DNA from: a virus
Virus record (IMG/VR): IMGVR_UViG_3300003177_000121
Coordinates: 1 to 45,220 of that record
Direction: 5' to 3' (one strand)
Length of the DNA: 45,220 bases
Position numbers and translations under genes: made by a program. Positions within the stretch are counted from its first letter, which is position 1, and every line of letters begins with the position of its first letter. Under the pieces are notes generated by a model. The model had not been told where the DNA came from. It searched no databases and saw only the letters and a program-made list of their open reading frames with translations. Positions 2,512-23,124 of the stretch are shown piece after piece.

Positions 2512-2766
2512 ATGGCAAAAACAAAAATAGAAGACATGGACTTAGAATCTAAAAAAACAACAAAAACAGACACATCAGTGGTAGACGTAGAGGTGACAGG
2601 CAATACAGGAATGGCTGTAAGAGGGACAAATCCATCTGTATTAGCTAACTTAAATCAAGGCTTTGAAGGTATTGAATCAATTGCAAATTTTATGCCTTAC
2701 TTTATAGTAGATGGTACAGAGTTGTTAAATAAGATAACTGAAGTTAGACCAAACTTTAGTAGCTGA
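2512..2766 (+). CDS. Hypothetical protein, N-terminal segment of a frameshifted gene (ssDNA-binding candidate)
   Basis: The ATG at 2512 has AAGGA upstream. The frame runs 84 aa and stops soon after TEVRPNFSS. The +1 frame is open from 2738 and reads TLVAESFDGTVSTEGQN into the next listed segment, so one gene of about 190 aa spans 2512-3091 with a break near 2750. The N-terminal 25 residues are charged and Thr-rich (KKTTKTDTSVVDVEVTG). No family is recognised. Being first after the leader and just ahead of the nuclease and polymerase, a single-strand DNA-binding or similar abundant replication protein is a reasonable guess, no more. Confidence 0.55.
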   Translation: MAKTKIEDMDLESKKTTKTDTSVVDVEVTGNTGMAVRGTNPSVLANLNQGFEGIESIANFMPYFIVDGTELLNKITEVRPNFSS

Positions 2767-2803
2767 GAGTTTTGATGGCACAGTTTCTACTGAAGGTCAA
2801 AAT

Positions 2804-3091
2804 ATGCAAGAAGCATTGGCTGAAACAAAAGCTAAATACCCAGGTCAAGAAGAAAAGATTAAGATTCAAGCTAGATATGATATTTATTTTGATTGGGATT
2901 ATCCAGAAGAAGGCACTAAGCTTACAAAAGTATCTTTAAGTCCTTCAAGTAAATATGCTTTTAGTGCTTATTCTCAAGAATTGGCTAAACAAGGCCTTGG
3001 AGTTACCCAAGTAACTACTTCTCTTGGTGCAAAAAGAACTGTGTCTAAACAAGGTTATAGATATAGTGTTGTAACTTTTGAAAGAGCCTAA
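2804..3091 (+). CDS. Hypothetical protein, C-terminal segment of the frameshifted gene starting at 2512
   Basis: The frame is open from 2738; the ATG at 2804 is only its first internal Met, and no ribosome site precedes it. The segment KIQARYDIYFDWDYPEEG followed by beta-like stretches (TKLTKVSLSPSSKY, YRYSVVTFERA) suggests a compact beta fold. Either a one-base indel near 2750 or a real +1 shift joins it to the upstream frame. The coding potential on both sides of the break looks equally good, so this reads as a single broken gene rather than two. Confidence 0.5.
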   Translation: MQEALAETKAKYPGQEEKIKIQARYDIYFDWDYPEEGTKLTKVSLSPSSKYAFSAYSQELAKQGLGVTQVTTSLGAKRTVSKQGYRYSVVTFERA

Positions 3092-3092
3092 T

Positions 3093-3488
3093 ATGAATAC
3101 TATTTCAAAAATAGTTCTAAAAAATCTTCAGCTAAAAGCTGGAGATTTGAATGTACCAGGTAAGCTAGAAAAATTATTCATTGCTTATAATAAAATAAAT
3201 GCTAATTTAGAAGCTTATGCTGATAGTTTAAGTAAAAGTTATAACTGCGGAAATTGTGGAAAACAGAATAGAAGTGCTATAGTAGAAACAAAAACAGTAA
3301 TGGCTAATGGCACTACCAGTGTAAAAACAACTAGTCCTTTAGAAGAAGTTAAACAAGAGAAGAATTCAAATTTATCGGCTAGAGATATAGAAGAATTTAA
3401 ACAGGAAAAGAATTTAAATTTAACTCCTAGGGATATAGAGGAAAGAATTAACTATTACACAGCTTTGCAAAGTATTAAGGAGAAATAA
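3093..3488 (+). CDS. Hypothetical protein with a CxxC knuckle and a duplicated C-terminal segment
   Basis: The best start is the ATG at 3093 (MNTISKIVLKN), one base after the previous stop; an upstream TTG would lie inside the preceding gene. The 131-aa protein is basic and hydrophilic. It has YNCGNCGKQ in the middle, a CxxC pair that could hold metal only with a partner, as no second pair exists. The end carries a near repeat of about 20 residues: VKQEKNSNLSARDIEE, then FKQEKNLNLTPRDIEE. It is cotranscribed with the replication genes. No family recognised. Confidence 0.55.
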   Translation: MNTISKIVLKNLQLKAGDLNVPGKLEKLFIAYNKINANLEAYADSLSKSYNCGNCGKQNRSAIVETKTVMANGTTSVKTTSPLEEVKQEKNSNLSARDIEEFKQEKNLNLTPRDIEERINYYTALQSIKEK

Positions 3489-3857
3489 ATGAGCGAAGAG
3501 TTTAAAAAAGATTCAATGGTTAATACTAAGTATAAACCATCACTGATTGAGCCTAGCTTTAAAAAAGATTTGGCTAAGTTGCTAACTTTAGGCGGTATGA
3601 AGTATGGTTTTAATAATTGGAAACTAGCCACTAAAGAACAAGTTGTAGAATATAGAGATGCCTTAGAGAGACATCTAATAGCCCGTGATAAAGGTGAATA
3701 CTTGGACAAAGATACTGGTTTGCCACATATAATCTGTGTAGCTTTTAATGTAATGGCTTTGCACTTTTTTGATGCTAAATTTTTTGACATAAACTTAGAT
3801 GACTCTATTTGGCAAGAACGGTTAGACTATTACAAGGAGCTTAAAAATGGTAAATAA
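3489..3857 (+). CDS. MazZ-like dATP/dGTP diphosphohydrolase family protein (DUF5664-type)
   Basis: This 122-aa protein shows the pattern of phage DUF5664/MazZ-like all-alpha pyrophosphohydrolases: LLTLGGMKYGFNNWKLA, then YRDALERHLIARDKGEYLD, DTGLPHIICVAFN and a Phe-rich end. The acidic residues in ALERH and GEYLDKDTG and the following His fit the metal-binding helices of the MazG superfamily. Family members hydrolyse dNTPs to dNMPs and PPi, and some act in phages with 2-aminoadenine DNA. No PurZ is seen here, so the substrate is open. The start at 3489 follows AAGGAGAAATAA. The end overlaps the nuclease gene by 11 bases. Confidence 0.68.
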   Translation: MSEEFKKDSMVNTKYKPSLIEPSFKKDLAKLLTLGGMKYGFNNWKLATKEQVVEYRDALERHLIARDKGEYLDKDTGLPHIICVAFNVMALHFFDAKFFDINLDDSIWQERLDYYKELKNGK

Positions 3858-4584
3858 AATTTTTATTGACACAAATAATTATTTGAAAAGAATATACCAC
3901 GGTGGAGGAGATCCATATAGCTTGTGGATGATGCTATTAAGACGATATGAAACTCAAGAAGTTTTTGTAGTTTGTGATACGGCTACATCACGACTCTATA
4001 GAAAATCTATTAATCCGGATTATAAAAAAGGACGTAAGCAAGATGATGACCCAATTTACTGGGAGCTTTATAATAACGCAATAACAATAGCTCGCCATTT
4101 TCCCAATATAAAAGTTATTGAAGTAACAGAGGGTGAAGCCGATGATTTTATAGGTTGTAAAGCTTCAAAAAATGATACTGTGATTTCTAATGATAAAGAC
4201 CTTTGGGTATTATTATCTAAAGGAACTAAAATACTTATAAATGCCACTACTCAAGTTGATAGTCAATTAGTGGCTACAAAATTTGTACATCCTGAGCCTG
4301 AGCTAATTACAGTTTATAAATGTTTGGTTGGCGATCCCAGTGATAATATAAAGGGTAAATTTAGATTTGGTGTAAAAGCCTATGAAAAACTTCCAGTAAA
4401 AAGACTACGCAATATTTTAGAGGAGCTTAAGACTAAAAATTATGAAGATGAGCTTATAGATGAAAATGTAAAACTAAGCTATGCTATGGTAAAATTTTTT
4501 CAAGACTATAAAACAAGGTTCTTAGAGCCTCTAAATTTTAATTTGTTAAATGATTTTATAACTTCAAAAGGAATAATATGCTAA
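3847..4584 (+). CDS. 5'-3' exonuclease / flap endonuclease (PolA N-terminal type)
   Basis: This 245-aa protein carries the metal-binding acids of the phage and PolA 5'-nuclease family: IFIDTN (D8), VVCDTATSRLYRKSINPDYK (D44 with the substrate Arg/Tyr/Lys cluster), TEGEADDFIG (E97, D99, D100), SNDKDLW (D116, D118) and LVGDPSDNIKG (D163, D166), which opens the helix-hairpin-helix. It would remove RNA primers and 5' flaps at the fork. It sits directly before the polymerase, whose own N-terminus has no 5'-nuclease domain, so the two together make the complete Pol I set. The ATG follows AAGGAGCTTAAAA. The stop overlaps the polymerase start by seven bases. Confidence 0.88.
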   Translation: MVNKIFIDTNNYLKRIYHGGGDPYSLWMMLLRRYETQEVFVVCDTATSRLYRKSINPDYKKGRKQDDDPIYWELYNNAITIARHFPNIKVIEVTEGEADDFIGCKASKNDTVISNDKDLWVLLSKGTKILINATTQVDSQLVATKFVHPEPELITVYKCLVGDPSDNIKGKFRFGVKAYEKLPVKRLRNILEELKTKNYEDELIDENVKLSYAMVKFFQDYKTRFLEPLNFNLLNDFITSKGIIC

Positions 4585-5780
4585 TAAGTAATAAGAATAT
4601 AAATGAAGCAATAGAATTGTTAAAAAAAGATGAAGGTACTATATGGTCTATAGACCTTGAAACTTTTTGTCCAATTGATAATTTTCCAGAGATAACTGGT
4701 AAAACAAAACCTTTAGATAGATTGAATTCAAAAATAGTTTCTTTGCAAATAACTACTGCTCATCTTCATAATTTTTATTTTAATTTTGCACACTCAGATG
4801 GGGATTTAGACTATTCATGGTTAAAGGTTATCTTTGATCTTAAACAAACAAATACGCATTTAATTGCTCATAATTTTAGTTTTGAGTGGACTTTATTATA
4901 CCTTCATGACGTAGATCTAACTAGATTTACTCTGTGGGACACAATGGTAATGGGCTGGTTAAGAAATGAAAACGAACAACAAGGTTTAAAATCAAGTATT
5001 AAAAAATACTTTAACTACCAGATGGCTACTTATAAAACAACCGTTGGTGATGGTAATATGTCTATGATTACTGGTGAGGAAGGTTATGCCTATGGTATGG
5101 ATGATGCTATATGGACATTAAAATTGTTTGACAAGTATTATGCAGAGATTAATACTGATTATTATTTAACTTTTGATGAGCCTATACTTAAATATATAGC
5201 TATGCACTATATAAAAGGTCAAAAAGTTGACATAAGCATTATAAAAGATTTTATTCTAGAGGATGAAATTAAAAGCCAAAAACTTTTATCTGAATATCCA
5301 ATATTAAGAGGTTTAAACTTAAATAGTCCAAAGCAAGTAGCTAATTTACTATTTAATGAACTTAGACTACCTCCAGTTAAAGTATCAAAAAAGACTGGCC
5401 AGCCTAGTACGGATAAAGAAACTTTAAATACACTAATTTTAGACCATTCTAAAACAAATCCAGAATTAAAAGCTTTTGAAGAAATTAGAAAGATTGAAAC
5501 GAAAAAGAAGCTGTATTATAAACCTTATCCTAAGCTTGTTTATCCTGATGGCAGATGGCATAGCGCGATTAGGCATACTGGTACAGTCACTGGTAGATTT
5601 AGTATGAGTAGCCCAAATTTGCAACAAATGGCCAAAAGAGGTGATAGTGTTAAAATCAGAAGAGTCACAAGTAGAACTTCGTATGGCTGCTCATTTATCC
5701 CAAGATCCAAAATTAGTAGATGCTTATCTTACTGGAAAAGACTTGCATACAGTATCGGGTACAAACATTTTAAATTGTAG
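4578..5780 (+). CDS. Family A DNA polymerase, 3'-5' exonuclease and palm-start segment (frameshifted)
   Basis: This is the N-terminal segment of a phage Pol I-type replicase. Exo I is WSIDLETF (D26, E28), Exo II is AHNFSFEW (Glu where Asp is usual) and Exo III is YGMDDA (Y172, D176). The thumb/palm entry GRFSMSSPNLQQMAKRGD is clear. After residue about 360 the frame becomes nonsense, and homology resumes in the +1 frame. The residues that should follow (normally about 15 aa ending in the catalytic DYSQ) cannot be found in any frame, so a block as well as the frame has been lost near 5640-5665. The start overlaps the nuclease stop. Confidence 0.85.
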   Translation: MLISNKNINEAIELLKKDEGTIWSIDLETFCPIDNFPEITGKTKPLDRLNSKIVSLQITTAHLHNFYFNFAHSDGDLDYSWLKVIFDLKQTNTHLIAHNFSFEWTLLYLHDVDLTRFTLWDTMVMGWLRNENEQQGLKSSIKKYFNYQMATYKTTVGDGNMSMITGEEGYAYGMDDAIWTLKLFDKYYAEINTDYYLTFDEPILKYIAMHYIKGQKVDISIIKDFILEDEIKSQKLLSEYPILRGLNLNSPKQVANLLFNELRLPPVKVSKKTGQPSTDKETLNTLILDHSKTNPELKAFEEIRKIETKKKLYYKPYPKLVYPDGRWHSAIRHTGTVTGRFSMSSPNLQQMAKRGDSVKIRRVTSRTSYGCSFIPRSKISRCLSYWKRLAYSIGYKHFKL

Positions 5781-6444
5781 CTATGATGAGATGAAAAAAA
5801 GATTAGAAAGTGGTGATTTAGAAGCTAAAAAGGCTAGACAAAAAGGCAAAACATTGAACTTTGCAGCCTTATATGGCGCAGCCCCGACAAGATTAAGTAA
5901 ATTTGATTTACTCGATTGTTCTATTGGAGAAGCTTCTTTCTTTTTACAAGCACATAGAGAAGGCTATAGTGGCTATTTTCATGACTTTGTTAATAAAATA
6001 TTAAAAGATGCAAAAGAAAAACTCTATGTTGAAACTATATTTAAAAGAAAAAGACATCTACCAAATCTTACTTCTCCTTTAAAAGTTTTAAGAATTGATG
6101 CAGAACATCAGGCTGTAAATGCAGTAGTTCAAGGTTCATGTGGAGAAATAATGAAATTAAGTTTTGCCAGACTTGGTAATGAAAATTTATTGTACAATAA
6201 AGATTTACAGTTTATTTGCCCTATTCATGATGAGTTTGTTTTTTCAGCCTCTAGAGAGGGTGTTCATAAGTATCTAAAAACTATAAAAGAAATAATGGAA
6301 CTAACTCCAAAAGGCTTTTCAATCCCAATTCTGGCCGCTGCATCTGTTGGAGTTAACTTCGCTGATCAAGTAGAAATTGAAGACCTAGATAAACTTGATT
6401 ATTATATGGATAAAGCTCTAGAATATAAATCAAAAGGAAATTAA
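5641..6444 (+). CDS. Family A DNA polymerase, palm/fingers segment (continues the gene at 4578)
   Basis: The same polymerase continues in the +1 frame. ESQVELRMAAHLS matches the rest of motif A (SQIELR), but the catalytic Asp-Tyr before it is replaced by Glu-Glu at the junction. Motif B is KARQKGKTLNFAALYGA and motif C is PIHDEFVFSA with the catalytic Asp. The frame then runs cleanly to 6444. The GTG at 5641 is not a credible start. As written the enzyme would be dead, but everything outside the junction is well kept, arguing for a recent or artefactual loss. Full gene span is 4578-6444. Confidence 0.85.
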   Translation: MIVLKSEESQVELRMAAHLSQDPKLVDAYLTGKDLHTVSGTNILNCSYDEMKKRLESGDLEAKKARQKGKTLNFAALYGAAPTRLSKFDLLDCSIGEASFFLQAHREGYSGYFHDFVNKILKDAKEKLYVETIFKRKRHLPNLTSPLKVLRIDAEHQAVNAVVQGSCGEIMKLSFARLGNENLLYNKDLQFICPIHDEFVFSASREGVHKYLKTIKEIMELTPKGFSIPILAAASVGVNFADQVEIEDLDKLDYYMDKALEYKSKGN

Positions 6445-7083
6445 ATGACAAAATTTGATAAAGTATATAAAGATACTCTTGAGTATGTAATAACTGAAGG
6501 AACTAATAGCACGAATAAAAGAACAGGCTCAACTGTTAGACAAGTTCATGGTTATTCATTTAACTATGATATGAATTTATTACCGAGGTTAAGATTAAGA
6601 AAAACCTGGATTAGTTCTGCAGCTGCAGAGCTAGCCTGGTTTTTATCCGGCACTAAAGATGCCTCATGGATAAATGAAAAAACCAGTATTTGGAGAGAAT
6701 TTACTGATTCAGAAAATAATATAAATACTGCCTATGGCTATAGATGGAGATATAAATGGGGGTATGACCAAGTAGAAAATATAATAATGAAACTTAAGCT
6801 CGATAATAGTTCTAGGCAACAAATTTTACTCAGTTGGGATCCTGAGGAAGATAATATTAATATAGCCAAGAATATACCTTGTCCATTTGTCTATGTAATA
6901 AATATTATAGATAATAAATTAAATATACACCTAACTTTAAGGTCAAATGATGCTTGGTTGGGCCTACCTTATGATATAATGACTGCTTGTTTATTAGGAA
7001 GAGCATTTGCTAATTCATTGGACGTTAAATTAGGAAGTTTACATTATTCAGTAGCTAATTTACATTTATATGAAAATATATAA
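6445..7083 (+). CDS. Thymidylate-synthase-fold enzyme, dCMP (hydroxy)methyltransferase type; 3' end frameshifted
   Basis: The fold is clear: ELAWFLSG, TSIWREF, AYGYRWR, IPCPFVY with the nucleophile C146, and LTLRSNDAWLGLPYDI. The numbering matches E. coli ThyA (C146, R166, S167, residue 177). ThyA has Asn177, which reads uracil; here the residue is Asp177, the change found in dCMP hydroxymethylase and in TS mutants that prefer dCMP. His147 is replaced by Pro. The frame stops after LHLYENI. The +1 frame then reads YKKTSPSIEIQNSNSF, and a third frame reads KPFDKYTFSGWTPR (to about 7199), so the C-terminus is present but broken twice. The start follows AAAGGAAATTAA. Confidence 0.8.
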   Translation: MTKFDKVYKDTLEYVITEGTNSTNKRTGSTVRQVHGYSFNYDMNLLPRLRLRKTWISSAAAELAWFLSGTKDASWINEKTSIWREFTDSENNINTAYGYRWRYKWGYDQVENIIMKLKLDNSSRQQILLSWDPEEDNINIAKNIPCPFVYVINIIDNKLNIHLTLRSNDAWLGLPYDIMTACLLGRAFANSLDVKLGSLHYSVANLHLYENI

Positions 7084-7205
7084 AAAAACAAGCCCTTCTA
7101 TAGAAATTCAAAATTCTAATTCTTTTAGTATAAATGAAATTAGAATAGACAAATTTTAAACCTTTTGATAAGTATACTTTTTCTGGCTGGACGCCAAGAG
7201 TTAAT

Positions 7206-7592
7206 GTGGCAACTCAAAGTTATGCAAAAAAGAAAAAAGTAGCCTGTATATTAGTTAAGGATAAACATTTTGTATCTGCAGGAGTAAATGGCACTTTAAA
7301 AGGCTTACCTAATAGGTGTGAGGATAAAGATGGAAAAAGTATGCATGATATAGTAGTACATGCAGAAATGAATGCAATAGCTAATGCAAGCGATAAAAAT
7401 GATATAAAAGGCTGCACAGCGTACTTAAACTATGGCCCATGTGAACATTGTGCAAAAACTCTATTACAATTTGGTATAAAAGCCTTACATATTAGAGGAG
7501 ATATAAAATATACTCAAGTGGTTCAAACTTGTATAGATTATTTAGGAGAAAATAATGTTAAAATTGAAACTAAAAACAAAAAATACAGTTAG
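7206..7592 (+). CDS. dCMP deaminase (N-terminus missing)
   Basis: Zinc-dependent deoxycytidylate deaminase: HAEMNAIANA gives the His ligand and catalytic Glu, and YGPCEHCAKTL gives the PCxxC ligands. ATQSYAKKKKVACILVKD matches the usual beginning after the first helix. The GTG at 7206 is only the first possible codon. In the same frame the upstream codons read as the end of the preceding TS-like gene (FSGWTPR), so the stop of that gene, the spacer and the first 10-15 codons of the deaminase appear to be lost. The enzyme makes dUMP from dCMP. Its pairing with a dCMP-type synthase is notable, since both use the same substrate. Confidence 0.82.
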   Translation: MATQSYAKKKKVACILVKDKHFVSAGVNGTLKGLPNRCEDKDGKSMHDIVVHAEMNAIANASDKNDIKGCTAYLNYGPCEHCAKTLLQFGIKALHIRGDIKYTQVVQTCIDYLGENNVKIETKNKKYS

Positions 7593-7794
7593 TGAAAAAC
7601 AATTTAAAAATCCTTATATAGAAGAAGTTAAGAAAATGGCAAAAGAACATATAATTGAGTTATGGAAAATTGGATTTATAAGTTTAAAAAATAAAAACCT
7701 AGTTGCAGAAAATATCTTAAAGTATAAAGCTTTAAAAATTATTCTAACTACCAAATTTTGTATAGACTTACCAAAAGATAATTTAAAGGATTAA
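7555..7794 (+). CDS. Hypothetical protein, 79 aa, basic
   Basis: This small Lys-rich protein overlaps the deaminase 3' end by 38 bases in another frame. The ATG at 7555 follows GGAGAAAATA, a reasonable ribosome site. Predicted to be mostly helical (EEVKKMAKEHIIELWKIG). It ends one base before the DHFR-like gene. No family recognised; it may be a small regulator or accessory of the nucleotide genes. Confidence 0.5.
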   Translation: MLKLKLKTKNTVSEKQFKNPYIEEVKKMAKEHIIELWKIGFISLKNKNLVAENILKYKALKIILTTKFCIDLPKDNLKD

Positions 7795-7795
7795 T

Positions 7796-8266
7796 ATGAC
7801 AGGTTGTATGTTAGCTGATAAAAACTTCTTCATTGCAGATGCAACTGGTAATATCATATCAGGACCTATAGAAGATAAAGCTCGTTTAAGAAAAAGAATA
7901 ACAGACAAGGTAGTGATTATAGGCTATAATACTTGGAAAAAAGATATATCTAACTATCCAAAGCTAATTGCCTTGCCCTCAATATGGCTAGTTATTAGCA
8001 CTAAATCTTTTAATCCTTATCATTATAATGTCAAGATAATAAAGCCTAATGAAAAAGATCTTTACAATATAGACTACTGTCTAGGAGGGCCAAAAACATT
8101 AGAACTACTAAAACCTTATAAATTGATAATTAGCCAAATTAATACCACTGAGATATCTTTTGGCTATAAACTAGAAATTAAAGACTATAGTCTAGTCTCT
8201 ATAGAAGATAAAATAAGCTATAAAGAATTAACTTATGAGCTAAAAAAGGATGAAGATGAAAAATGA
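7796..8266 (+). CDS. Dihydrofolate reductase-like protein (divergent)
   Basis: This 156-aa protein has the order of DHFR elements. An N-terminal strand (CMLADKNFFIADATGNIIS) precedes PIEDKARLRKRI, where the active-site acid is expected. VVIIGYNTWKK matches the cofactor-binding G-R/Y-x-T-W segment, and YCLGGPKTLELL matches the GG loop before a helix. The match is weak but the order and length fit. DHFR would recycle dihydrofolate made by thymidylate or 5-methyl-dCMP synthesis; a pure hydroxymethylase would not need it. It starts after AAAGGATTAAT and overlaps the RecU-like gene by 17 bases. Confidence 0.66.
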   Translation: MTGCMLADKNFFIADATGNIISGPIEDKARLRKRITDKVVIIGYNTWKKDISNYPKLIALPSIWLVISTKSFNPYHYNVKIIKPNEKDLYNIDYCLGGPKTLELLKPYKLIISQINTTEISFGYKLEIKDYSLVSIEDKISYKELTYELKKDEDEK

Positions 8267-8537
8267 TGGGATGGCCAGTCAAAAAGATTATTTAGACTTA
8301 TTAAAGGAAGAAATGAAATATGATATAAATTTTATAGTTCATGAATTTGTAGATACAAGAAAAGCGCGAAACTTTGTTGAGAGTAATCCATCTGATTTTT
8401 TTGCATGCTATAAATCTACTCCATGGCTAATAGAAGTTAAATCTAGTATTGATCTAGCACGTTTTCCTTTATGGATGGAACTATATGTTTGTAATCCACC
8501 ATGTAATATGGGATTTATGGTATTTTGTACCATTTGA
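8250..8537 (+). CDS. RecU-like Holliday-junction nuclease (frameshifted; true end near 8613)
   Basis: The segment PSDFFACYKSTPWLIEVKSS followed by ARFPL has the D...ExK active site and the FPL turn of RecU-type resolvases of the restriction-endonuclease fold. After ARFPL the reading becomes unclear (WMELYVCNPPCNMGF). Homology returns in the +1 frame as WYFVPFDFIYKTYMSKKRSI, the usual RecU ending, continuing to a stop at 8611-8613. One base is out of frame, and perhaps ten residues holding the conserved HQ are missing. RecU resolves recombination intermediates, which suits its place before the SbcD/SbcC-like genes. Confidence 0.66.
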   Translation: MKMKNDGMASQKDYLDLLKEEMKYDINFIVHEFVDTRKARNFVESNPSDFFACYKSTPWLIEVKSSIDLARFPLWMELYVCNPPCNMGFMVFCTI

Positions 8538-8579
8538 TTTTATTTATAAAACATATATGAGTAAGAAAAGATCAATTAG

Positions 8580-9482
8580 TTGGAAAGATTTAAAACCTTT
8601 TACGAACACCTAGATAAGGTTAGAAAAGTAACCTATGGTAATGCAGATATTTGGAATAATAAACCTTTTGAAATAACTAAAAGTATAATAGACTTTGAAA
8701 AGCCCACGAGAATAATTTTTCTTGGTGATATTTTCGATAAATATAAACCGGATAGTTTATCCACGGTTAAGTTCATTTCTATGATAAAAGACATAGATAC
8801 TTATATAATAGAAGGCAATCATGATAGACCAAAAATGAATCAGCCTTACTGTTTTGAAGAGTTAGATACTTTATCAAATATTACTATTATAAAAAGAAAT
8901 ACTATAAGTAATTTTGCACCAAAATTTTATGGTATAGGCTGGTGTGATACACAAGAAATTTTTGTTTCAAAACTAGAGTTATTACTAGACGAAATTGAAG
9001 AGGAAAGTATTCTTTGTTTACACTGTAATCATAGTGATTGGAGAAATGAGATGGATAATTATATCCCTGAAAATATTATAAATCAGTTTAGTGCTTTAAA
9101 TGTTACTATTTTTGCAGGTCATGACCACAGCCATTTTGCTATTAAAAACTTTATTAGTCTTGGTTCTGTAATCCCAAATAATATAGGAGAAATTGGAGAA
9201 AAAAAATATTGGAGTTCAAAAACTGGGCTTGTTACTATAGATACAAAAGTTGGTAATAGTCTTAAGGATGATGTAATATTACTTAGAAAAGAACCCTTTG
9301 ATATTGATCCTAATAAGGCTTATTATATAAAAACAAAAAATGCTATAGAACAAGATGACCTAAAACTTGAAGAAAAAAATTTACATATAGATATACTTGA
9401 AGATTTTACTACAGAGGCTATTAAAGCTGGGTTTGACCTAGAGTATGTAAACAAGCACTTAGGAGGCACTGATGATAACTAG
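8580..9482 (+). CDS. SbcD/Mre11/gp47-like recombination exonuclease subunit (N-terminus missing)
   Basis: Calcineurin-like phosphoesterase: IIFLGDIFDKYK (GDxxD), IEGNHDRPK (GNHD), LCLHCNHSDWR and FAGHDHSH (GHxH) supply four of the five metal-binding motifs. The first motif (DxH at the very start of the family) is absent: the frame opens at a TTG at 8580 directly after a TAG, inside the RecU-like tail. About 15-20 N-terminal codons have therefore been lost together with the gene boundary. With the SbcC-like partner it would process DNA ends for recombination-dependent replication. The 3' end overlaps the partner's ATG. Confidence 0.82.
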   Translation: MERFKTFYEHLDKVRKVTYGNADIWNNKPFEITKSIIDFEKPTRIIFLGDIFDKYKPDSLSTVKFISMIKDIDTYIIEGNHDRPKMNQPYCFEELDTLSNITIIKRNTISNFAPKFYGIGWCDTQEIFVSKLELLLDEIEEESILCLHCNHSDWRNEMDNYIPENIINQFSALNVTIFAGHDHSHFAIKNFISLGSVIPNNIGEIGEKKYWSSKTGLVTIDTKVGNSLKDDVILLRKEPFDIDPNKAYYIKTKNAIEQDDLKLEEKNLHIDILEDFTTEAIKAGFDLEYVNKHLGGTDDN

Positions 9483-9701
9483 AATAATTTTAAATAACTA
9501 TAGGTCATACAAAAAACTTGATAAGAATTTTTCAGTGAAGCTATTGGCTATGCTTTACAAGGAAGTTCTTTACAAAAAGGCGCGGCTACTACCTGGATAA
9601 AAAAAGGTGAAACTGTAGGCAGTGTTACTCTTTATATTGATGATTTTGTAATTATTAGAGGAAATAAAAAACAAATAGTTAAAGATATTGAAGGGGCTAT
9701 A
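9472..9701 (+). CDS. SbcC/Rad50/gp46-like ATPase, N-terminal segment (P-loop missing)
   Basis: The ATG at 9472 follows GGAGGCACTG and opens with MITRIILNNYRSYKKLDKNF, the classic SMC/Rad50 N-terminal strand. At about 9530 the frame changes, and the next readable text (0 frame, from about 9531) is SEAIGYALQGSSLQKGA, the helix just after the P-loop. The Walker A motif GxxGxGKS and its surroundings, about 20 residues, are missing. The frame then continues as VTLYIDDFVIIRGNKKQ into the next segment. The full gene spans 9472-11213 and overlaps gp47. Confidence 0.72.
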
Positions 9702-9944
9702 GTGGCTCGAGGCCATACTGGAATTAATGAGTGGGTGACTAAAGTCTATGGCTTATCTCCTGAGCTATATAAAACTTCTTTTCATATAGCTCAAAAAGAA
9801 ATTTCAGCCTTTGCTAGTCTTGGTTCAGTAGAAAAAACAAAAAGAGTAGAAAAATTGTTACGTCTTGATATTATAGATAAAATAAAGCAAGAAGCTCAAT
9901 TAAGTAGACGAGATACACTAAGTAAATATACAAACAAGACTTAA
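9702..9944 (+). CDS. SbcC/Rad50-like ATPase, second segment
   Basis: The frame is open from about 9531; the listed GTG is internal. ELYKTSFHIAQKEISAFA matches the Rad50/SbcC Q-loop region, where the Gln contacts the metal, and KTKRVEKLLRLDIIDKIK leads into the coiled coil. A stop at 9942 comes from a small indel: the text SRRDTLSKY continues in the -1 frame as KQDLKDTKDSL with no loss of residues. Confidence 0.7.
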   Translation: MARGHTGINEWVTKVYGLSPELYKTSFHIAQKEISAFASLGSVEKTKRVEKLLRLDIIDKIKQEAQLSRRDTLSKYTNKT

Positions 9945-10207
9945 AAGATACAAAAGATAGTCTTATTGACCTAGAAACAAAAATAAAAGATCTTAGGCAA
10001 GAAGAGCTAAATCAAGCCTCTTTAATATCTGAATATAATTCAAAAGTAGCTTTATACAATAAAAAAATTAGCCTTAAAAAGAGACTTTTAAATAAAAGCT
10101 TAACCAAACAAAACTTAAAGGATAAAATACAAGAAACTGAGGATAAAAAGGCTAAAAATTTAGTTATACTCGCAGATAAAAAGTTATTTAATGAAAAAAT
10201 AAATTTA

Positions 10208-10933
10208 TTGAATACTTTACAGCATGCAAATATACAAGAAAAATATTTCACTAAGTCTTTAGAGCATTGTATGGATCTTAAAAGTAAGATTAAAAATAGC
10301 AATTTAGCTGTAGAAAATTTAAAAGAGTATACAGAAGCTGAATTATCTTGGGCTAAGTCAGCTGATACAGAAAAAGATCTAAATAGTTTAAAAGTAGAAA
10401 TATTAGATCTAGATAGAAGAATAAAAACCTTAAAAGCTAAACCTACTACTTGCCCTACTTGTGGACAAACTATGCCTGATATACACGAACTACCAAAAGA
10501 AATAAGTATACTAGAGCTTAAAAAGGAAGAGCTGTCTACAAAATTTGTAAAAAAAGAAAAAAGATTTGAAATAACTAGGCTTAAAGAGTCTATATTTAAG
10601 ACTAAATATACCTTAGAAGATATAAGTATAATGTTAAATTCTATAAAGTTAAAAGATAAGTATCTAAGATTACAAGAGTTAAAAGATGTAGAAGAACCTA
10701 AAGAACAATTGGTTAGTGATAGCTATTTAGACAGTACTATATTAGATTTTAAGCACGACTTAAGTATTAAAGAGAGACTAGAAGAATATAAAGATATAAG
10801 TTTACCAAAGCCTATACAAGTTAAAAAATTTAGCCAAATCATAGAAGATTTAACTGCAAAAGAACATGAACTAAATAAAAAGCTTAATTCTATAGAACAA
10901 AGTATAGAGACTAAAAAGAAAAATTATTGCTAG
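10208..10933 (+). CDS. SbcC/Rad50-like ATPase, coiled-coil and zinc-hook segment
   Basis: The frame is open from 9926 to 10933; the ATG at 10208 is internal. It encodes two long charged coiled-coil arms around TTCPTCGQTMPD (about 10449-10478), the CPxC zinc hook through which Rad50/SbcC dimers meet. The frame stops after ETKKKNYC. Removing one A from the A5 run near 10920 gives ETKKKIIASYRNAF, which runs on into the last segment. Confidence 0.75.
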   Translation: MNTLQHANIQEKYFTKSLEHCMDLKSKIKNSNLAVENLKEYTEAELSWAKSADTEKDLNSLKVEILDLDRRIKTLKAKPTTCPTCGQTMPDIHELPKEISILELKKEELSTKFVKKEKRFEITRLKESIFKTKYTLEDISIMLNSIKLKDKYLRLQELKDVEEPKEQLVSDSYLDSTILDFKHDLSIKERLEEYKDISLPKPIQVKKFSQIIEDLTAKEHELNKKLNSIEQSIETKKKNYC

Positions 10934-10967
10934 TTATAGGAACGCCTTTAGTTCTAAAATAGTACCT

Positions 10968-11213
10968 ATGATAGAAGAAAATGCAAATAAAATTGTAAAT
11001 TATCTATCCGAAGGTAAAATAAAGAAACTTAGCCTTGAAAACTCCTATTCTATTAGAGATTATGACTTGTATAGTGGTGCAGAAGAAGATTCAGCTAACT
11101 TTGCTTTAAGATTGGCTATTGCTCAAATATCTAGACTTGGCAGTTATAATACTATTATACTAGATGAAGATATGCAAATAATTTATATCTCACATGGAGA
11201 TGTAAATTATTAA
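10968..11213 (+). CDS. SbcC/Rad50-like ATPase, C-terminal segment (region after Walker B missing)
   Basis: The frame is open from about 10923, and the ATG at 10968 is internal. LYSGAEEDSANFALRLAIAQ is the ABC signature region (SGxE), and TIILDE is Walker B with the catalytic Glu. It then joins in frame to DMQIIYISHGDVNY, the H-loop strand. The D-loop and the helix that normally separate them, about 25 residues, are absent. The last codon overlaps the convergent gene on the other strand by four bases. Confidence 0.75.
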   Translation: MIEENANKIVNYLSEGKIKKLSLENSYSIRDYDLYSGAEEDSANFALRLAIAQISRLGSYNTIILDEDMQIIYISHGDVNY

Positions 11214-19455: not shown

Positions 19456-19475
19456 TACAAAGTAGAATAGTTTGG

Positions 19476-20345
19476 TTATCTAAATATTGTGATATTCTTA
19501 GTAAAAGATTTATCTTCTACAGTCACTTTTATATCAAAATTATTAGTGCCTTTATTAAGTATTTTTGTATATAAACTTTCAGAGTTTGGGTCTATAAAGC
19601 GCAAAGGTATATGGATCCAAGGTCTAGAACAAGTAGTGCCATCTATATCTGGAACTATCATTGCACTTGCTGAAATAGGCTCATAAGTAAATTCTATTCT
19701 ATCTTTATCTGTTTTTAAAGATACTATATCTCCAGTATTAGCTTTTATTTCTAATACTTTATCTATTGTAATTTGAGTAGTAAAACTTGTATGGTCAAAA
19801 TAATTAAATCTAAAAGGCTTAATTTTTACTGGAATTATTTCAGTAGAGACATTTAAAGTTCTTCTATTAAATAAATCAATTTCATCGGGTAAATTCCATA
19901 GACCAGATACTTTTGAACTATCAAATATTCCTGTGCTAAATATTTTTTGCCAAAGATACCCAGAGTCAAAGTAATAAGGATTAAAGAAAAATTTAGACTT
20001 AGTAGTACTACTCCAATAAGGTATGTTATTAATATCAAGGTTTAAAAATTTACCTAAAGAACTTTTTACATAAACAACATTAGAATCAGAAAATATAACT
20101 TTATTAATGGCATTAGAATAAGATATAATAGTTCCTGAGTAAAGAATATCTAATATATTTTTGGTGTCAAGTTTTTGTTTATAGATAGTAAACTCTAGAC
20201 CTAAAGTAGCTTTATTAGGGCTCACTATTTCTTGTAACTTATTATTAATATAAATAGCTATATTAGTTGAATTGCTATCTATACAGGCTATATTATAGGG
20301 TAATTTACTATTTGTTGAATTATAAATATGTGTATAAGTTAACAT
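19476..20345 (-). CDS. Hypothetical tail-associated protein, 289 aa
   Basis: No family recognised. The protein is beta-rich with many Asn, Ile, Tyr and Ser residues. A possible internal duplication is not evident. CSRPWIHIPLRFIDPNSESL near residue 245 precedes a C-terminal domain (FDIKVTVEDKSFTKNITIF) like an immunoglobulin-type sandwich. It sits between the tail hub genes and the lysis cassette, the usual place of tail tip or fibre-attachment proteins. The ATG follows a GAGAGATTAAA site at the end of the preceding gene. Confidence 0.5.
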   Translation of the reverse strand: MLTYTHIYNSTNSKLPYNIACIDSNSTNIAIYINNKLQEIVSPNKATLGLEFTIYKQKLDTKNILDILYSGTIISYSNAINKVIFSDSNVVYVKSSLGKFLNLDINNIPYWSSTTKSKFFFNPYYFDSGYLWQKIFSTGIFDSSKVSGLWNLPDEIDLFNRRTLNVSTEIIPVKIKPFRFNYFDHTSFTTQITIDKVLEIKANTGDIVSLKTDKDRIEFTYEPISASAMIVPDIDGTTCSRPWIHIPLRFIDPNSESLYTKILNKGTNNFDIKVTVEDKSFTKNITIFR

Positions 20346-20346
20346 T

Positions 20347-20932
20347 TTAATCTCTCAATACAATTATTGATGTTATTACTAAGTATAAATTCTTATCTGA
20401 TAATTCTATAATAGATCCTTTTTTATAGTAAATAACTTTGCTTAAAAAAGCTTCTCATACCAGAGATATCTACAGTTAATCTAGTATCTAATGATTTATT
20501 CGCAGTATGCCCAAATGGTTTATACATGCTTATATCTCCTTGATAAGCTATATCTTTATAAGCATATAGCATATCGTCAATAAAATTTATTGGCCTAAAT
20601 ATAAAAGATTCTTTATTATTTATAGTAGTTAAACCATTAAACACAGCAAAAGTATAAGTATACCCTGGATTTAGATCTGTTAGTTTTATTAAACTACTAT
20701 CTGAGTCTAAAATTGGCTCTAGTGAATGTATACCTAAAAAGTACATAAACATAGCTTTTAAATCTTTAAAGACTAAATTCATACCCCAAGCTTCTTTAGT
20801 ATCTATATTTTCTATAGTATTTCCAGTGCAAATAAGCGCTGGATAAGTATCTCCGAGTATATCTGTAGATTCAAATGACTCAAACTTCGACATAAATTTT
20901 GATCGAGTTATTGTTAAGCTTGAAATATTCAT
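20347..20932 (-). CDS. Hypothetical tail protein (frameshifted near 20440)
   Basis: The main frame (20423-20932) gives 169 aa starting MNISSLTITRSKFMSKFES. It breaks in a T6 run; with one T fewer the text RSFLSKVIYYKKGSIIELSD runs on to a stop at 20347-20349, about 195 aa. The start overlaps the hub gene stop by four bases (ATGA type), so they are translationally coupled. The family is unknown; probably part of the tail tip. Confidence 0.5.
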
Positions 20933-23124
20933 AACTCCACCATATCCTCTGCCTCTATAAGAAACTCTATTTTTGGAGCTTTAAAACTTGTACCTAATGG
21001 AAAATCTATAAACTCCACTATTGATAAATTAGGATAATTATTAGCTTCTGGTACAGATAAACCTTGAATTGTAGTTTTATTATTGGTCTCTATTGGCTGG
21101 ACTGTGCCTAGTAAACTAGCTTTTAAATAATACTTTAGATCCTTTGATGTTATTATGCCATTAGAAATTAAACTAGCTGAATTAGTCAAACTAACAACTT
21201 CTTTTTTAATAAAAGTTTCTGGAGAATCTTTATCTAAATTTGGTAAAGTTAAATCTATAGAGTTTATATCTGTAGAACCAAATGAAATAATCTGTTCTAC
21301 TGTATTTTGTAAGGGCCTATAGCCTTTAAACATGTATAAGCCCATTTTTGGGCTTTCTATGTCAGTATCTTTAATTAGCTTAGTAAATAAACCAGAATAT
21401 TTTGCTGCGTTATAGTTATGATATTTATTTATAGTGGGGCAATATGGTTGATTAGGTGTGCCGGGATAAATATACATCTCTAATTCTTTAAGATTACTAT
21501 TATTAGACTCATCTGGAAACATCTTAAACTTTAATTTATACCTTGTACAACCTGAGTCTGATATCCCAGTTACAGAATTTCCTTTAGAATCGGTTATACT
21601 AGAAGTAGTATATAAAGCATTATTTATTTTTATACTGTGTATATGAGTTAGTTTACCAAAACCAAGAACATAAGCTATATTTGCAAAATAATATCGCCCA
21701 GAGTCTTTAAAACTTCCGCCTAGATTAACTTCATTTATAGAGGCTGTTCCTAAGCCCAAGATAGTTGTTTTATAAAATGTATCTAAATCAGCATTACTTA
21801 TAGGAATTACTAGCTTATCAATAAAAGTTAACACAGATTCAAATAAAACTTCAGCTTCAATAGCTTTATCAATAAGTGCTTGTAAAGCTGTATCTGTAGT
21901 AGTATTTTTAGTTAGCCCTTGCCAAAAACTTTTACTTAAGTCATATATTCTATAAATTAGCTCTTTTTGCTTTAATAAAGCTGCTACCTGTGGTCCACTG
22001 CTCTGCGTATAAAGCTCGTGAATTTTAGTTAGTATAATACTACTCAAGTTATATCTTTCAAATATAAAATTTGTAGCCACTTCTTTAGTTAAAGAATTAA
22101 AAGAATCTACAGTTGTTGAGTTTACTACTGGAACATAAGAAAAACAATTTAAAAATTTTAAACTTATATCAAATTTATTTTGTATTTCAATATAAGCATT
22201 TGTAGTTCTATATGTTTTCATATAAGTAGCAGCTATGTCTAAATCTGCATAATGCTGAAAATGTACCCAATCCTCATCTATAGTAACATAATTATTTATT
22301 ACCTGAATAATATTAGTATTTAATTTATCTACTTCAATATTTAAAGTATTTTTAGAAGGAGTTGTAGCATTTATAGATATTATAAGCTGTTTTATATACT
22401 TGTAATAATCTGTTGAACTATCAAGTGTATTTAAGCTATCGCTTATTGAAATAACTATATCATAAACAGCTAATAAATTGGCCATACTGTTGGTTGCTTT
22501 TTGAGCTAAGTCTAATAAATTATTATAGTTACCATTAGAACTAATTAAATTAGTAATAGTGTCACAACCAGTAAGTATAGTCTGATATTGATTATTTAAA
22601 TGAATCAAATAGTTTTTTAGATTATATAAGTATACTTCATATAAACAATCTGTAGTAGTACAATCAGAGGGACATTTAACAGGAATTCCAGATATATAGC
22701 CTAAGTCATTTGCACATAGGTCTTCTGTAGTATCACTAGTGGGTAAATTAATACTACTTAGTATAACTAATGGTCTATCTTCTAGGCCTAAGTCTACTAA
22801 ATTCATTAATGGTAACATAGGTTTAGCTGATACATCTAAGCATCTAAAACTAACTTGACCATAGTCATTCTTTTGTAACATTCTTACAGCTGTATCTGAC
22901 ATGGCTATTGGCTTACCAGTAACAAAAGTTTTTCCATCAAGATATGGTAAAGTTACATTACTCACTAAGCCAGAATTAGTTAAATTTAAAGCCTCAGCTG
23001 TATCTACTGAATAAGGTAAAAATCTAAGATTATTAAGAATACAAGTAGAATAATTTGCATCGCCTAAAGAACCTGTGCATAAATTTTCTGCATGGGTATA
23101 TGATATTATTCTGCTAGTACTCAT
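20929..23124 (-). CDS. Tail tip/hub protein with GTA_TIM/gpJ-like segments
   Basis: This 731-aa protein contains, near residues 470-500, RYYFANIAYVLGFGKLTHIH followed by SIKINNALYT. This resembles the A-x-G-x-G/x-E-G-x-V-x-x-I core of phage J-like and GTA TIM-barrel hub proteins. Then comes YIYPGTPNQPYCPTINKYH and KYSGLFTKLIKD, matching their Gt..Q..d and YrGla segments. The first 400 residues are helical and specific to this phage. It would form the tail tip that meets the cell surface. It overlaps its neighbours by four bases on both sides. Confidence 0.6.
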   Translation of the reverse strand: MSTSRIISYTHAENLCTGSLGDANYSTCILNNLRFLPYSVDTAEALNLTNSGLVSNVTLPYLDGKTFVTGKPIAMSDTAVRMLQKNDYGQVSFRCLDVSAKPMLPLMNLVDLGLEDRPLVILSSINLPTSDTTEDLCANDLGYISGIPVKCPSDCTTTDCLYEVYLYNLKNYLIHLNNQYQTILTGCDTITNLISSNGNYNNLLDLAQKATNSMANLLAVYDIVISISDSLNTLDSSTDYYKYIKQLIISINATTPSKNTLNIEVDKLNTNIIQVINNYVTIDEDWVHFQHYADLDIAATYMKTYRTTNAYIEIQNKFDISLKFLNCFSYVPVVNSTTVDSFNSLTKEVATNFIFERYNLSSIILTKIHELYTQSSGPQVAALLKQKELIYRIYDLSKSFWQGLTKNTTTDTALQALIDKAIEAEVLFESVLTFIDKLVIPISNADLDTFYKTTILGLGTASINEVNLGGSFKDSGRYYFANIAYVLGFGKLTHIHSIKINNALYTTSSITDSKGNSVTGISDSGCTRYKLKFKMFPDESNNSNLKELEMYIYPGTPNQPYCPTINKYHNYNAAKYSGLFTKLIKDTDIESPKMGLYMFKGYRPLQNTVEQIISFGSTDINSIDLTLPNLDKDSPETFIKKEVVSLTNSASLISNGIITSKDLKYYLKASLLGTVQPIETNNKTTIQGLSVPEANNYPNLSIVEFIDFPLGTSFKAPKIEFLIEAEDMVEL

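Follow-up and report, generated by a model that had tools for sequence, protein, structure and literature searches.

The DNA of phage Xp12 contains 5-methylcytosine in place of cytosine (PMC7653180). A deaminase of this phage converts 5-methyl-dCTP to dTTP, and contact with the methyl group was proposed for one of its aromatic residues, W128 (PMC12088426). Of 31 restriction enzymes tried on DNA of AXL1, a close relative of Xp12, five cut it and 26 did not (PMC9206674). In enzymes with the thymidylate synthase (TS) fold, published work assigns the discrimination between dUMP and dCMP to position 177 (PMC8670742; PMC6400193; PMC5175136). PMC8670742 cites Hardy & Nalivaika 1992 and Liu & Santi 1992 for this role, and also cites the conversion of a TS into a dCMP methylase by exchange of Asn177 for Asp. 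The MetaGPA study (PMC8670742) linked position 147, as a second residue, with modified cytosine. T4 dCMP hydroxymethylase is characterized by an Asp/Glu three residues before the catalytic Cys and a Ser/Thr two residues before the active-site Tyr; its D145N variant is inactive, hydroxymethylation being abolished. Methylation yields dihydrofolate, hydroxymethylation tetrahydrofolate (PMC6400193).

Here we analyzed a stretch of viral DNA of 45,220 nucleotides (IMG/VR record IMGVR_UViG_3300003177_000121, positions 1 to 45,220; hereafter the window), in which an earlier note had drawn attention to a TS-fold gene.

A TS-fold gene with aspartate at position 177

The gene and its displaced 3′ part comprise the following elements:

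6445–7083, plus strand: TS-fold, putatively dCMP-specific enzyme, residues 1–212, the N-terminal four fifths (PF00303, residue table)
6871–6873, 6880–6882, 6883–6885 and 6973–6975, plus strand: codons of Asn143, Cys146, Pro147 and Asp177 (GAT)
7152–7208, plus strand: C-terminal tail of the TS-like enzyme (FSGW.P.VNV), out of frame (tblastn with the L015 protein)

Translation of the first element gives 212 amino acids including LRSNDAWLGLPYDIMTAC. The protein matched PF00303 with an E-value of 4.3e-45 (154 bits, curated cut-off 24.3) and PHROG 160 with 1.1e-53, and residues 7–211 were matched by solved TS structures. Numbering follows E. coli ThyA from NC_000913, which was aligned with the window protein; a residue table compared the latter with ThyA, T4 gp42, SPO1 gp29, M6 and relatives. 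C146, R166, S167, D169, H207 and Y209 are numbered identically in the window protein and in ThyA, as the earlier note had stated for the first three. The place of ThyA Asn177 is taken by Asp, which the note had correctly located at 6970–6980.

All 44 metagenomic relatives of the clade, which come from viral contigs, retain Asp177, as do seven isolate phages. The relatives include L015, an intact copy 69% identical to the window enzyme, and L016, which is 52% identical. As all 44 relatives including intact L015 have Asp177, the residue is neither a sequencing error nor due to chance. An initial search for relatives in viral contigs had returned three loci, all of them discarded: in one, the match was confined to a short peptide inside an unrelated protein, and the two remaining loci gave this same short match.

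The gene is broken in the window within its C-terminal fifth. The reading frame is truncated compared with the intact L015 protein of 271 amino acids, a damage that the earlier note had implied by speaking of a restored protein. The C-terminal motif of L015 (FSGWKPKVNV) was found in the window at 7152–7208 out of frame only, where tblastn placed L015 residues 251–269 in frame +3 with an E-value of 5e-4.

That the exchange of Asn for Asp at position 177 acts as a switch from dUMP to dCMP, as claimed beforehand, is borne out by PMC8670742 and PMC6400193. The window enzyme has the Asp of dCMP-specific enzymes and departs from canonical ThyA (Asn177, Leu143, His147) at all three positions. Judged from these residues, dCMP is well supported as the substrate.

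Residues, phylogeny and a neighboring gene bearing on the product

The known hydroxymethylases of T4, SPO1 and M6 have Asp at E. coli position 143, and so did all 38 T4-type relatives examined. In the window and its clade this position is Asn, apart from a single Met among 44 sequences (L052); the Asp/Glu of the T4-type signature is absent from the window enzyme. At position 147 every member of the clade has Pro, where T4-type enzymes have Thr, dUMP hydroxymethylases Asn and ThyA His. Each Xp12-group isolate that we examined combines Asn143 with Pro147. Two residues before Tyr94 the window enzyme has Thr, followed by Ala at position 93; within the clade the Thr site varies between Ala, Ser, Thr and Asn. 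R127 is replaced by Gln, as it is in RDJL3, JWX, L015 and L016. A sub-branch formed by L054, L056 and L058 displays Trp83 and a ThyA-like C-terminus (VAI), and neither a DHFR nor a deaminase was recognised near these genes.

A tree of 70 sequences (quick search, SH-aLRT support, no bootstrap) grouped the window enzyme with L015 (99) and L016 (96) inside a group of all Asn143/Asp177 enzymes (86). T4-type enzymes stood apart with a support of 100 and those of the dUMP-hydroxymethylase type with 97; the deep branching order is unsure, with long branches meeting between the T4 and SPO1 groups. The Asn143/Asp177 group takes in phages of the Bradleyvirinae, the subfamily of Xp12, and AXL1 and other Bradleyvirinae represented Xp12 in our comparisons. 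Measured against these proxies, the window enzyme falls into the same clade and has N143, P147 and D177, at only 34–41% identity to known phage relatives.

Three genes follow downstream:

7206–7592, plus strand: deoxycytidylate-deaminase-like protein with a HAE...PC..C zinc motif (PF00383, E 1e-17; PHROG 174, E 3e-29)
7555–7794, plus strand: small conserved protein between deaminase and DHFR, 50% identical to the equivalently placed L015 protein of 103 aa
7796–8266, plus strand: divergent dihydrofolate reductase (DHFR; weak match to PHROG 316, E 0.013; AlphaFold model matching DHFRs)

The product of 7796–8266 escaped a DHFR profile from which the window, L015 and L016 sequences had been left out, and profile-profile comparison gave a weak probability of 24.6%. 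The AlphaFold model (pLDDT 85) retrieved solved DHFRs in all 50 listed matches, with a probability of 1.00 and TM scores of about 0.7. Sequence profiles being weak, the structure model alone settled the assignment, and the predicted fold confirms the protein as a DHFR.

DHFR and deaminase thus adjoin the TS-like gene in the window. The same TS-deaminase-DHFR cassette is present in Bradleyvirinae, RDJL3 and RcSimone, and JWX has TS and deaminase. In L016 (4036–6669) the order is TS-DHFR-deaminase, and a dUTPase gene and a kinase-like gene lie directly upstream of the TS-like gene. Counting related loci as independent, a DHFR was found near 32 of 43 Asn143/Asp177 loci (none was recognised nearby in the other 11), compared with zero of seven loci of the dUMP-hydroxymethylase type (Fisher p 3e-4) and zero of 38 T4-type loci. 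The Pfam DHFR model did detect a DHFR in five T4-type records, more than 100 kb from the gp42-type gene. Since the DHFR model also picks out E. coli FolA, the zero counts do not result from its blindness.

The earlier note had taken T4 dCMP hydroxymethylase as its model, had also named 5-methyl-dCMP, and made no mention of the DHFR, the deaminase or a possible thymidine route. An enzyme of the T4 type, giving phage DNA with 5-hydroxymethylcytosine that is perhaps further decorated, would fit Asp177, which gp42 and the window enzyme have in common, the Thr in the place of T4 Ser94, and the Phe that replaces W83 in the window. We nevertheless consider it unlikely. Asn instead of Asp/Glu precedes the catalytic Cys by three residues, and T4 D145N gives no product; Pro147 replaces Thr; the clade is distinct from T4-type enzymes in the tree; and no carbamoyltransferase was found in seven records searched. 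In addition, a hydroxymethylase has no need of the adjoining DHFR, whose presence favors methylation because only the latter reaction leaves dihydrofolate. Asn143, Pro147, the Xp12-group clade and the adjacent DHFR and deaminase make T4 hydroxymethylase the poorer model and favor 5-methyl-dCMP as the product.

The deaminase and the supply of thymidine nucleotides

The deaminase-like protein lacks its N-terminus in the window and shares 82% identity with its intact L015 counterpart. Deaminases were located near 37 of the 43 Asn143/Asp177 loci. In an alignment in which AXL1 W128 was taken as the counterpart of W128 of the Xp12 deaminase, a member of the same family, the isolate cassettes have Trp in this column; the window (Tyr102), L015 and L016 have Tyr. 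The Tyr is compatible with an Xp12-like enzyme but not diagnostic, because the site is aromatic in T4 dCMP deaminase too (PMC12088426). The window and each of 22 relatives contain a single TS, and no ThyX was found in these 23 records, some of which may be fragments. For thymidylate kinase, there was only a weak match in the record of L016.

One could argue that TS-like enzyme and deaminase serve thymidylate supply alone, dCMP being methylated and then deaminated with genomic cytosine left largely unmodified. The frequent deaminase, the single TS per record without ThyX and the formation of dTTP from 5-methyl-dCTP in Xp12 are all in line with this idea. It is quite unlikely, however, as the same pool also replaces the cytosine of Xp12 DNA (PMC7653180), and the DNA of AXL1 withstands most of the restriction enzymes tested (PMC9206674). 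An ordinary dUMP-dependent TS that tolerates Asp177 and receives its dUMP from the deaminase is highly improbable: the gene order would suit classical dTMP synthesis too, and the AXL1 genes are annotated accordingly (PMC9206674), but Asp177 is invariant across the group, Leu143 and His147 of TS are likewise substituted, and the exchange at position 177 makes a TS a dCMP methylase, as cited in PMC8670742.

Other genes and DNA composition

Two genes upstream of the TS-like gene are of relevance:

3489–3857, plus strand: dNTP pyrophosphohydrolase-like protein (PF18909 dGTP_diPhyd_N, E 2.4e-20; PHROG 801)
4578–6444, plus strand: family A DNA polymerase (polA), directly upstream of the TS-like gene (PF00476, E 9e-46)

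The product of 3489–3857 is a candidate for the removal of unmodified dCTP. The PF18909 match also led us to consider a diaminopurine ('Z') genome, which was rejected as no PurZ-like gene was present in three records searched. A cytosine-C5 DNA methyltransferase, an alternative source of 5-methylcytosine, was not found in seven records searched. The GC content of the window is about 31%, and CpG has an observed/expected ratio of 0.28 across 1–45220 without an excess of TpG. Neither low GC nor CpG depletion was used as evidence, because full 5-methylcytosine would not single out CpG.

The polA frame is broken near 5650 in the window and intact in L015 (637 aa). Compared with the collinear, intact L015, early genes within 2512–11210 are interrupted by short gaps of an estimated 40–60 nt each. 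Affected are 2512–3088, polA, the TS-like gene, the deaminase gene, 8250–8601 and SbcC. The gap sizes are oddly similar, and the gaps may be genuine or stem from assembly; the structural region 19474–22755, compared with L015, looks intact. Within 7155–7592, the TS tail runs into the deaminase as one open frame. The corresponding L015 genes are read in different frames and share an overlap of about 50 nt.

A putative cassette for 5-methyl-dCMP

Taken together, we assign a probability of about 0.72 to an Xp12-type dCMP methylase cassette, in which 5-methyl-dCMP is made for DNA and the deaminase produces thymidine nucleotides from it. Using methylene-tetrahydrofolate as donor, the TS-like enzyme would attach a one-carbon unit at C5 of dCMP and reduce this unit to methyl. 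The products would be 5-methyl-dCMP and dihydrofolate, and the neighboring DHFR would regenerate tetrahydrofolate from the latter. After phosphorylation, probably by host kinases, the 5-methyl nucleotide would enter phage DNA instead of cytosine, while ordinary dCTP may be removed by the upstream pyrophosphohydrolase. Part of the methylated nucleotide would be converted to thymidine nucleotide by the neighboring deaminase, methylation preceding deamination. Several points speak against this reading: with the C-terminal part of the TS-like gene broken, the window's own copy may not be functional; identity to the known phage relatives is low; Gln replaces R127; the Thr before Tyr94 would be compatible with the Ser94 signature of T4; and 11 loci of the group have no DHFR recognised nearby. 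It is reasonable to predict that the phage DNA contains modified cytosine, which might protect it against host restriction. We consider it probable that the phage synthesizes 5-methylcytosine for use in its DNA; its thymine may derive from the 5-methylcytosine nucleotide as well.

More tentatively, a group of phages across unrelated lineages might use a cytosine-first route to thymidine, drawing 5-methylcytosine and thymine from one pool without a dUMP-based TS of their own. We regard this generalization as possible, with the odds somewhat against it; if true, the Xp12 route would be a common phage strategy instead of one exception. For the methylase cassette itself, the consequence would be that the complete methylation of cytosine known from Xp12 extends beyond a few isolates and reaches an unrelated, AT-rich lineage of uncultured phages. 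Metagenomic TS-like genes could then be sorted into methylases and hydroxymethylases by positions 143 and 177 in combination with 147, a distinction that 177 alone does not provide. Phages that are possibly resistant to many restriction enzymes and possibly make thymidine from 5-methylcytosine nucleotides would be flagged as well.

Comparison with known systems

E. coli ThyA and the window enzyme both have Cys146, Glu58, Trp80, Tyr94, Arg166, Ser167, Asp169, His207 and Tyr209. They differ at positions 177 (Asn in ThyA, Asp in the window), 143 (Leu, Asn) and 147 (His, Pro). The dUMP hydroxymethylases SPO1 gp29 and M6 have the TS fold, the catalytic Cys and Tyr94 in common with the window enzyme and are distinguished from it by Asn177 and Asp143. 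The dCMP hydroxymethylase T4 gp42 shares the fold and Asp177; however, it displays Asp143/Thr147 instead of Asn143/Pro147 and is devoid of the C-terminal tail, and no DHFR adjoins T4-type loci.

AXL1, Mallos, DoCa5 and ZQG1, Bradleyvirinae relatives of Xanthomonas phage Xp12 and its dCMP methyltransferase pathway, resemble the window in Asn143, Pro147 and Asp177 and in the adjacent deaminase and DHFR, and the Xp12-group relatives searched likewise have a single TS and no other. In contrast to this group, to which the enzyme is about 40% identical, the window has a divergent DHFR, Tyr instead of Trp at the deaminase site and its pyrophosphohydrolase gene upstream of polA, not beside the TS-like gene. 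Moreover, the phage is of another lineage, its large terminase being about 31% identical to that of Vibrio phage 264E42.1. In the best-supported reading, the window enzyme joins an already known kind, the Xp12-type dCMP methylases, in an unrelated phage lineage.
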